A stretch of DNA of 64,000 bases from Candidatus Bathyarchaeota archaeon (lineage in GTDB: Archaea > Thermoproteota > Bathyarchaeia > Bathyarchaeales > Bathycorpusculaceae): contig JAOZIE010000002.1 of assembly GCA_026014485.1 (NCBI GenBank), forward strand, positions 109,081-173,080, given 5' to 3'. Under the pieces are notes generated by a model. It did no database searches. It saw nothing but the letters and a program-made list of their open reading frames with translations, and had not been told where the DNA came from. The translations under genes and the position numbers were made by a program. Of this stretch, positions 19,857-23,514 are shown in pieces (position 1 is the first letter of the stretch; each line of letters begins with the position of its first letter).

Positions 19857-20459
19857 TTACAGGTCAAATTTTTGGAGTATCCGTTGCTTGTTGGTCTTAA
19901 CTTTTTTGTCAACTTCAAAATAGAGGTTTCCCCCGTGAGCGTCGATGGCAACAACCAACGGCCCAAACTCTTTCACTTCCAGAACCCACATCGCTTCAGG
20001 CATACCTAAATCCAGCCACTCCACATCCCGAACGCAACATATCGCTTTGGCAGCTAAAACGGCTGCCCCTCCCGTAAACGCGCAGTACACCGCGCCCTCC
20101 TCCGCCATGGCGTCCGTGGTTCGTTGACCCATGCCACCCTTGCCAATGATTATTCGAGGCTTAAAGGCTGATATGAATTCCGCCTCGTAACGGTCCAGTC
20201 TCGTGCTGGTGGTGGGTCCAGCGGCGACCGCAACCCAACTGCCGTCAGGCTGTTTTTTCATAACCGGACCACAATGGTAAACCGCTTGCCCCTCCAAGTC
20301 AACAGGCAAAGGTTTTCCTTCCTTTAGGTATTCTAAAGCGCGTCTGTGCGCTTGGTCGCGGGCAGTCACTACAACGCCAGTGACGTAAAGTACATCGTTA
20401 ACTTTGAGTCGACGCGCATCCTTCTCAGAAATTGGCATCTGCAGTCTATGAATCGCCAT
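19857..20459 (-). CDS. fumB: fumarate hydratase class I, beta subunit
   Basis: About 200 residues from ATG 20459, whose TGATG overlap with the alpha-subunit stop shows translational coupling; GTG 20465 in the track is an alternative. With the alpha subunit it forms the Fe-S fumarase that interconverts fumarate and malate. Motifs: GVVVTARDQAHRRA, YHCGPV, GPTTSTRLDRYE, IIGKGGMG and CAFTGGAA are those of the C-terminal domain of class I hydro-lyases. L-tartrate dehydratase beta subunits are very similar, so the substrate is inferred from the common archaeal role. Confidence 0.9.
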   Translation of the reverse strand: MAIHRLQMPISEKDARRLKVNDVLYVTGVVVTARDQAHRRALEYLKEGKPLPVDLEGQAVYHCGPVMKKQPDGSWVAVAAGPTTSTRLDRYEAEFISAFKPRIIIGKGGMGQRTTDAMAEEGAVYCAFTGGAAVLAAKAICCVRDVEWLDLGMPEAMWVLEVKEFGPLVVAIDAHGGNLYFEVDKKVKTNKQRILQKFDL

Positions 20460-21364
20460 CAGCACTTCCCTGCCCCATTTTTGGTGAGGTATTCAACTGT
20501 TCCGTCAGCGCTGATTTTGGCGGAGGCACGCCTGCAAGCCCAACAGCTAAACGCAACTGCCACGGGGAAAGACGCTGGATGCCTAAACGCAAAATCCACA
20601 TGCGCACCTAGAACCGTTGTTTTTCCTCCTAACCCCATCGGACCGATGTCCGTCAAGTTCGCCGCCTCAACCAGTTCTTTTTCAAGCGCCGCAATTTCGG
20701 GGTCAGCATTAGCTTCGTTTAGAGGTTTCAGCAGTGCCTTCTTTGCCAAAATCATCGCCGCGTCAGCGCCGCCCCCAACCCCTACACCTAATATGGTTGG
20801 AGGACAAGGCTGCGCCCCCGCCTTAACAACGGCATCTAATACAAACCGCTTGAGCCCTTTGACGCCTTCGCCTGGAGAAAGCATGCCCAACGCAGACACG
20901 TTTTCGGAGCCTCCGCCCTTAGGAAAAACCGTAATTTCCACGCTGTCGCCTGAAACGATTTCCCAGTGCACCAGCGGAACCAGCCGCCCTGTGTTGTCGC
21001 CGCTATTCTTAGCTGTGAAAGGATTAACAGCGTTGGGTCTAAGCGGCACCTCAACCGTGGCTCTTCTTGTCGCCTCCACCAAGGCTTTCTCCAGCAGGTT
21101 TAGGTTTTCTGCCTTTGTCCCTGCTTTAACAAAGAAGGTTAAGGTGCCTGTGTCTTGGCAAATGGGAACTTGCTTCTCCTCAGCTAAGGCTACGTTCGCC
21201 AATATGGCTTGGAGCTGAGTTCTGCCGATTTCGCTTGTTTCTTCCCCACACGCTCTGTTTATAGCGTTCTTGATGTCAACGGGCAAGTAAACGACTGCCT
21301 GTTTGATTAAGTTGAACGCGACTGCTTCAAGACTTCTGTTTTCCAGCTTCAACACGTTTCCCAT
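20459..21364 (-). CDS. fumA: fumarate hydratase class I, alpha subunit
   Basis: 301 residues carrying the [4Fe-4S] cluster. The three ligand Cys regions are visible: VPICQDTGTLTFF, AQPCPPTILGVGVGG and the C-terminal FSCWACRRAS. Between them GSENVSALGMLSPGEG and GPMGLGGKTTVLG are family motifs. The oxygen-labile cluster suits an anaerobe. It is first in a two-gene operon with the beta subunit, divergent from radA. The 234-base upstream spacer holds promoters for both. Confidence 0.92.
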   Translation of the reverse strand: MGNVLKLENRSLEAVAFNLIKQAVVYLPVDIKNAINRACGEETSEIGRTQLQAILANVALAEEKQVPICQDTGTLTFFVKAGTKAENLNLLEKALVEATRRATVEVPLRPNAVNPFTAKNSGDNTGRLVPLVHWEIVSGDSVEITVFPKGGGSENVSALGMLSPGEGVKGLKRFVLDAVVKAGAQPCPPTILGVGVGGGADAAMILAKKALLKPLNEANADPEIAALEKELVEAANLTDIGPMGLGGKTTVLGAHVDFAFRHPASFPVAVAFSCWACRRASAKISADGTVEYLTKNGAGKC

Positions 21365-21598: not shown

Positions 21599-22642
21599 AT
21601 GCCCGAAGACGAAAGCATAAACGTTGAAGCCGAAGAAAAAGAAGAATCTGCTGCCCCAAAAAAGCCCAAGTATGAATTCATCGAAGACATTCCTGGAGTG
21701 GGACCCGCCACTTCACAGAAGCTCCGAGAGTTAGGCTACCACACCGTGGAATCGTTAGCTATGGCTACATCCCGTGAACTGGAGCCTGTGGGCGTCAGCG
21801 AAAAGAAATCCTTCCAAATAATCAACGCTGCCCGTTCCGCCGTAGGCATAAACTTCATTCGTGCTGATGAACTATACAACATGCGCAAAGATGTTTTGCG
21901 TTTGACGTCAGGCAGCAAAGCTCTGGACAAGATGATTAACGGCGGCTTAGAAAGCCAGACTATAACCGAATTCTACGGCGAATACGGTAGCGGCAAAAGC
22001 CAGTTCTGCCACCAACTGTGCGTAAACGTTCAGTTGCCGCCTGAACGTGGAGGACTCGGCGGCGGCGCCTTGTACGTGGACACTGAGAATACCTTCAGGC
22101 TGGAAAGAATTATCCAGATGGCTACCCATTTAGGTCTAGACCCCGAGCAGGTGGTCAAAAACATCATTTACGCTGAAGCCTTCACTTCAGACCATCAGAT
22201 GTTCCTCTTGGAGAACGCAGACGAGATAATCAAAGCAAACAACATTAAAATAATCATCATAGACTCGCTTACGGCTCACTTCAGAAGTGAATACATAGGA
22301 CGCGAAATGCTAGCCAGCAGGCAGCAGAAACTCAACAAGCACATGCACAAGCTTATCTCGCTGGCTCGCGCCTTCAACGCCGTTGCCGTGGTGACGAATC
22401 AGGTTATGGCTAAACCAGACCAGTTTTTCGGCGACGCCACACACCCCATCGGCGGACACATAGTCGGGCACACAAGTAACACGAGGATTTACCTGAGGCG
22501 TTCCTCTCGCGGTCCAGTGCGCATCGCACGGCTGGTTTCAAGTCCATATTTGCCTGAGGGCGAGGAAATCCTTAAAGTAACCGAAAACGGTATAGAAGAC
22601 ATCACCGAAGAGGAGAAAGCAGCCAAGACTCGTGGTCGTTAA
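21599..22642 (+). CDS. radA: DNA repair and recombination protein RadA
   Basis: 347 residues, the archaeal RecA/Rad51 recombinase that forms filaments on single-stranded DNA. Residues 1-25 are an acidic tail. A helix-hairpin-helix domain (IEDIPGVGPATSQKLRELGY) is followed by the polymerisation motif region NAARSAVGINFIRADEL. The core has Walker A GEYGSGKSQ, the GGALYVDTENTFR strand, Walker B IKIIIIDSLTAHF and the L2-adjacent NQVMAKPD and GHTSNTRIYLRR. The stop is followed two bases later by a gene for a PIP-box protein, most likely in the same operon. Confidence 0.97.
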   Translation: MPEDESINVEAEEKEESAAPKKPKYEFIEDIPGVGPATSQKLRELGYHTVESLAMATSRELEPVGVSEKKSFQIINAARSAVGINFIRADELYNMRKDVLRLTSGSKALDKMINGGLESQTITEFYGEYGSGKSQFCHQLCVNVQLPPERGGLGGGALYVDTENTFRLERIIQMATHLGLDPEQVVKNIIYAEAFTSDHQMFLLENADEIIKANNIKIIIIDSLTAHFRSEYIGREMLASRQQKLNKHMHKLISLARAFNAVAVVTNQVMAKPDQFFGDATHPIGGHIVGHTSNTRIYLRRSSRGPVRIARLVSSPYLPEGEEILKVTENGIEDITEEEKAAKTRGR

Positions 22643-22644
22643 AC

Positions 22645-23148
22645 ATGCCGGTACCTCAAGCTTTAGTTGCACGATACTTCCAACTTATAGGCTCAAGACA
22701 GTTCACCGAAGCAGAACGCGAACTGGAACGGCTCAAACAGAAAATGCAGAAAACCGAATGGAACAGAGGCTACTTCAGAGCGCTGTACGGCATGTTGCGT
22801 TCCCGAAAAACATCCAACGACAACTACTCTTTTCTCTCAAAGCTTGACTTATCAGATAAACCCGCGCTGCACGGTTACAGACGCGAATTTCTGGATCACA
22901 CAAGAAACGGGCTGCACGGCGATTTTGACCGCGGCTTTTTCTCCGCTTGGGCTGACTGCATGCGCGTTTTTGCCCGCATAGAACTAGCAACGCCCACTTC
23001 TAAGAAATCAGAAGCCGCAACAACCGCAAACGCCCCAGAGGCTCAAATCGAGACGCTCAGAAGCGACAAAAGTCAGGCTACAATCGCTAATTTTTTGAAA
23101 AAGAACGCCGCAGACGCTGAGAAAGCTGGAACTAAAAAAGAAGAATAA
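22645..23148 (+). CDS. RadA-linked protein with C-terminal PCNA-interacting motif
   Basis: 167 residues, not recognised as a named family. Residues 1-115 are a compact helical domain rich in aromatic and basic residues (ARYFQLIGSRQFTEAEREL, NRGYFRALYGML, GDFDRGFFSAWADCMRVF). Residues 116-143 are a low-complexity linker. At about 144 the sequence QATIANFLKK fits the PIP-box consensus Q-x-x-[I/L/M]-x-x-F-[F/L], followed by a charged tail. It follows radA by two bases, so a replication or recombination role at the clamp is a fair inference. Confidence 0.75.
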   Translation: MPVPQALVARYFQLIGSRQFTEAERELERLKQKMQKTEWNRGYFRALYGMLRSRKTSNDNYSFLSKLDLSDKPALHGYRREFLDHTRNGLHGDFDRGFFSAWADCMRVFARIELATPTSKKSEAATTANAPEAQIETLRSDKSQATIANFLKKNAADAEKAGTKKEE

Positions 23149-23160: not shown

Positions 23161-23514
23161 TTAAAGTGGACCAAGGATTGCGGTTAGGCTTAGCACCCAG
23201 ACAATTATCCACGTGAAGAAGTAGATGAATATGCCCATGCTCATGAGTTTTGACTGTTTCTCTATTCTTGTGGCGTATTTTGCTTTGATTACGTAGTAAC
23301 TGATTATGTACACGAATAGGGCGATGGTGATTCCGTTTAGCAGCGTGTTAAGCGGCGGGGCACCACCTCCAACAGGTGCAACCAAGTCACGAATCGTCAT
23401 GCTGGGATCTAGTATTGGCCATACTGCAAGTAACCCTGTGCATAATAGCCCCGCGACTGCGCCTAACGCGACTCTTGTCCAGTAAATCTTTGTGAGCGCT
23501 TCCACATTTTTCAT
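23161..23514 (-). CDS. small integral membrane protein
   Basis: 117 residues with three predicted transmembrane segments: about 15-33 (VALGAVAGLLCTGLLAVW), 60-80 (ITIALFVYIISYYVI) and 93-112 (MGIFIYFFTWIIVWVLSLTA). A basic loop KAKYATRIEKQSK lies between the last two. The loop with PVGGGAPPLNTLLNG would face outward. I do not recognise a family; similar three-helix proteins are common in archaeal genomes of this type. Confidence 0.6.
   Translation of the reverse strand: MKNVEALTKIYWTRVALGAVAGLLCTGLLAVWPILDPSMTIRDLVAPVGGGAPPLNTLLNGITIALFVYIISYYVIKAKYATRIEKQSKLMSMGIFIYFFTWIIVWVLSLTAILGPL

Follow-up and report, generated by a model that had tools for sequence, protein, structure and literature searches.

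The locus described here raises the question of what is done by the small protein encoded immediately behind the recombinase gene radA. In the window, i.e., the whole stretch of 64,000 nucleotides that was analysed, radA lies on the forward strand (21599..22642) and encodes an archaeal RadA recombinase of 347 aa, which matches the NCBIfam RadA equivalogs PRK04301 (E ~1e-136) and TIGR02236 (E ~1e-131) and has FIRA at residue 86 as its own FxxA motif for polymerisation. The ORF under study (22645..23148, forward strand) starts with an ATG at 22645 and is thus separated from the end of radA by two bases, as the initial annotation had stated. According to its translation and its homologues, the product is a RadA-linked helical protein of 167 aa with a C-terminal PIP box and the C-terminal end SDKSQATIANFLKKNAADAEKAGTKKEE. 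On balance, we consider it probable that this protein is a RadA accessory factor, either a mediator or a regulator, which in this lineage would be tethered to PCNA. Of this proposal, the pairing of the two genes is observed, as are the predicted domain and the tail, together with the conservation of all three.

Linkage to radA and the conserved neighbourhood

The window belongs to a Bathyarchaeia genome, and the named genomes closest to it are those of Candidatus Bathyarchaeota and Bathycorpusculum. The gene was present in 37 of 41 related genomes in a first search, including all 29 good ones, and a GTDB scan returned 50 loci of the family. Among the 89 first-round loci, which comprise sampled genomes and GTDB records with some overlap, radA is located upstream on the same strand in 88, and in 49 of these the two genes are exactly 2 bp apart. 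Profile searches extended the family to 108 of 110 good Bathyarchaeia genomes; a broader profile added many families of other Thermoproteota classes. The gene is single-copy, barring second copies in f6 (family codes of this analysis, with f1 as the family of the window) and a small number of additional matches that are weak or partial. Where some f6 genomes (L089, L155) encode a second member of the helical family, this copy is unlinked to radA and has no PIP tail.

The usual placement is directly downstream of radA on the same strand, at a distance of 1-5 bp. Other Bathyarchaeia orders keep this linkage except for f16, two genomes of which have the ORF without an adjoining radA. In other classes, a RadA-family gene adjoins the ORF in 26 of 40 loci and none does in 14. 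The genetic linkage extends beyond close relatives, with f16, f26, f27, f36, f47 and f48 as exceptions. In four of these 26 (genomes G280, G220, G245, G313) the adjoining gene is a divergent RadA paralogue (33-41% identity) and a better-matching RadA-family gene is found elsewhere. At loci L158, L163, L164 and L170 the paralogue beside the ORF is strongly divergent, and the RadA-family gene of better match lies in another part of the genome. Two further loci deserve mention. The RadA of L129:2-1936 (genome G056) contains an intein-like insertion of ~400 residues within GGHIVAHT/SHTR; the N-terminus of the insertion, CLHPDTLV, is of the splicing type, and its C-terminus carries HN. At L145:1137-2444 (gene orientation) RadA and its partner share a single frame; we set this aside as evidence of fusion since ~50 C-terminal RadA residues are missing and the assembly is fragmented, so that a deletion or an assembly error is the probable cause.

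The pair is embedded in a wider conserved order consisting of fumarase (-), radA (+), the ORF (+), an EMC6-like gene (-) and an RqcH-like gene (+). In the window, the divergent neighbours are the fumarate hydratase subunits (Fumerase, Fumerase_C; 19857..21364, reverse strand). The convergent neighbour (23161..23514, reverse strand) encodes a small membrane protein that is EMC6-like by tblastn homology to proteins that occupy this position in other classes, and its L165 homologue matches Pfam EMC6. This protein is part of the conserved neighbourhood and stands outside the proposed complex. Because the wider neighbourhood is conserved too, part of the linkage between radA and the ORF is inherited order; the 14 other-class loci and the two f16 genomes in which no radA adjoins also make it possible that the linkage is in part inherited synteny.

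Taken further, such inheritance would turn the ORF into a housekeeping gene unrelated to recombination, which follows radA because the old block fumAB-radA-ORF-EMC6-rqcH is slowly rearranged. This would agree with the conservation of the block in several classes, and with the families f26, f27, f36, f47 and f48, which have the ORF but no radA next to it, in most cases with the EMC6-like gene still adjacent (in f26, between fumarase and EMC6). Within the block, however, the ORF is the only gene that is directly behind radA and co-directional with it, abutting it or overlapping by a few bases. Moreover, the pair persists where neither an EMC6-like nor an RqcH gene was detected (f22; L121, L123, L125 and L142). 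In f41, f46 and f51 the ORF abuts divergent RadA paralogues, and the PIP box present in the order points to DNA metabolism. A role unrelated to recombination thus appears rather unlikely to us. Since f26 keeps the ORF without radA and f22 keeps the pair alone, the linkage supports a role with RadA without proving it, and it is solely from gene linkage that we infer the connection of the protein to RadA.

A PIP box on a disordered tail

The predicted clamp half of the proposal is based on the conservation of a motif. Behind the helical domain, the product continues with a disordered and mostly variable linker (residues 114-140; 22984..23064, forward strand), followed by the conserved tail core DKSQATIANFL (residues 141-151; 23065..23097, forward strand). 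Herein, QATIANFL (residues 144-151; 23074-23097, forward strand) constitutes the PIP box. The AlphaFold2 model has a pLDDT < 50 at residues 117-139, placing the motif on a flexible terminal tail, and predicts a short helix of low confidence at residues 147-159 within this disordered tail. Directly before the motif, IETL is moderately conserved in the otherwise mostly variable linker. The tail region around the PIP box reads IETLRSDKSQATIANFLKKN, and the candidate PCNA-binding tail peptides are DKSQATIANFLKK and DKSQATIANFLKKN. QATIANFL fits the PIP consensus Qxxhxxaa/QxxLxxFx (PMC4858679; PMC7776575), and both this fit and the flexible linker bear out what had been read from the C-terminus at the outset. 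Among 117 ORFs of at least 100 codons in the window, real and spurious ones included, ORF 22645-23148 is the only one whose last 30 residues contain a motif of this type.

The motif occurs in 56 of 57 distinct f1 proteins, compared to a mean of 0.06 matches and a maximum of one in shuffled f1 tails. The 57th protein (L077) is frameshifted and truncated, and GQATIENFL is encoded in another frame of its DNA. Apart from L077, positions Q144, I147 (I/M/L) and F150 (F/Y) are invariant in f1, while residues 113-134 of the linker are mostly variable and contain indels. Given the count against shuffled tails and the free variation of the linker before it, the motif exceeds chance. We regard it as very likely a genuine PIP box, and predict that it binds PCNA. 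Outside f1, but within the order, a PIP box is present in 13 of 26 proteins (~0.2-0.4 expected from shuffled tails), differently worded as in QTDIFQFL, QITIEAFV, QRTLFDYS, QSLIVDYA, QTSIIQYA and QTSLANWQ. No PIP box is seen in the homologues from other orders (0 of 29) or from other classes (0 of 40), with shuffled tails giving at most ~0.4 expected matches in any group. Conservation of the QxxIxxFL motif, on which the initial annotation depended, therefore holds in f1 and, in altered form, in half of the order's other proteins, and does not extend to other orders and classes. Since the PIP box is missing from all 69 deeper homologues, we conclude that the clamp tether is younger than the helical domain linked to RadA, which is ancient. 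On the RadA tree the PIP trait requires five changes, and it may have a single origin. Two f22 homologues, L121 and L144, end in EGLTQYLAESS and EGLTPYLAESS, respectively, which is PIP-like without the glutamine.

The genome of the window carries genes for PCNA (PF00705/PF02747, at G000:C9:47572) and FEN1, and its FEN1 has the usual C-terminal PIP box KMTLEKWF (end KMTLEKWFG). A C-terminal PIP box was not found in the RFC large subunit of this genome, which served as another control, and a genome-wide nucleotide pattern for PIP boxes was not informative, as forward matches exceeded the reversed control only modestly. A close parallel in wording is provided by EndoQ of Thermococcus and Pyrococcus, which interacts with PCNA (~55 nM by SPR for T. 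kodakarensis), an interaction ascribed to the motifs QRSITEFL and QRTLLQYI that nearly coincide with the PIP boxes of the ORF family (PMC4858679). Like EndoQ and FEN1, the ORF protein bears Qxx[ILM]xx[FY][LI] at its C-terminus, within a flexible tail. It differs from these archaeal clients in that its body is an unassigned helical domain, with neither a nuclease domain nor any other domain of known catalytic activity, and in that its PIP box is confined to part of one order.

The strict conservation of the box in f1 together with the re-worded boxes elsewhere in the order would also suit a clamp client that acts independently of RadA, either regulating PCNA or competing with other clients, with an operon position that reflects co-expression with repair genes. 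Yet most members outside the order have no PIP box and the same domain is still found beside radA, and we regard a clamp client of this kind as improbable.

The helical domain and a read-through model with RadA

AlphaFold2 (73 sequences) and the alignment of homologues delineate a conserved domain of five helices with a pLDDT of ~95 (residues 1-113; 22645..22983, forward strand). Nearly invariant are G42, Y43, A46, L47 and G49 on the one hand and D95, G97, F99 and A101 on the other. Most of these residues fall in WNRGYFRALYG of helix 3 and FDRGFFSAWAD of helix 5 (long helices counted), segments that echo each other when the two halves of the domain are compared with hhalign (18 columns aligned). 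Searches of Pfam, NCBIfam and PDB sequences with the ORF and distant homologues matched no family, in agreement with the earlier observation that the helical domain cannot be assigned. Foldseek of the AlphaFold model against the PDB gave no match with E < 1, and literature searches returned no description of the family. The Pfam and NCBIfam search likewise yielded no Rad51, RecA or KaiC match for this all-helical core of 113 residues. Some likeness to helical repeats was seen, namely to TPR_19 (E 0.0027) for a single distant member, to HrpB1_HrpK and ANAPC8 as weak matches of a few members, and to AimR in a PDB profile search (E 0.57). A TPR assignment was rejected, as the matches are weak, inconsistent and never above a curated cut-off. 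In addition, hhalign of the family against the designed TPR consensus fails and Foldseek shows no TPR fold.

In 25 loci the stop codon of radA shares its frame with the start of the ORF, which allowed a natural read-through to be modelled from paired rows. The model of RadA core and partner (22 paired rows, short linker) has both domains at high confidence and a pTM of 0.72, which by our own estimate is about the value for two well-folded, undocked domains. Judged by pTM, it contains no confident docking between RadA and its partner. Foldseek of this fusion model had only RadA/Rad51-family proteins among the matches listed. The model also bears on a BRC-like binding mode, in which FFSA/FxxA of the last helix would mimic FIRA of RadA to cap or load its protomers: the nearly invariant [FY]FxA at residues 98-101 and RadA's own FxxA at residue 86 invite this reading, but the segment is predicted to be helical and is echoed by GYFRAL in the third helix, so that packing of the fold explains its conservation, and the model, which left out RadA's own FxxA and hence had a free pocket, gave no confident docking, leaving such mimicry very improbable.

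A proposed RadA accessory factor with a clamp tether

The accessory role that we propose can be pictured as follows. The ORF and radA are probably located on one transcript. RadA, or the DNA to which it is bound, is the most likely target of the ancient five-helix domain, which would serve as a mediator or regulator. Part of this Bathyarchaeia order would then have gained the disordered tail at the C-terminus, whose PIP box should dock the protein on the PCNA ring. Docked in this manner, the protein would deliver or restrain RadA at clamp-bearing sites, with stalled forks and D-loops under extension as candidates. The idea that the protein couples recombination to the sliding clamp, put forward by the initial annotation, gains from the retention of the PIP box in f1, with the contact to RadA inferred from linkage. 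Its reach is limited to at most part of one order, given that 0 of 29 other-order and 0 of 40 other-class homologues carry the box.

In eukaryotes, PARI and RECQL5 are PCNA- and RAD51-linked regulators. As an idea, the combination of a PIP box and a recombinase contact in one protein is shared with them, whereas the ORF protein has no helicase domain. The archaeal recombination mediators RadB and SsoRal1 are RadA paralogues, and RadB occurs only in Euryarchaeota (PMC5480776). An accessory role towards RadA, proposed for the ORF protein, would be common to all three; in contrast to these paralogues, the ORF protein has neither a RecA fold nor Walker motifs and is encoded beside radA.

More tentatively, we suggest that part of the Thermoproteota possesses an ancient, non-paralogous mediator or regulator of RadA, with a clamp tether gained within one Bathyarchaeia order. 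Near-universal in Bathyarchaeia and present in related classes too, the RadA-linked family offers a candidate for the factor missing there, and its orthologues with and without a PIP box offer a natural contrast for the coupling of recombination to the sliding clamp. If true, a non-paralogue mediator with a gained tether would represent a visible evolutionary step in the wiring of recombination to the replisome.
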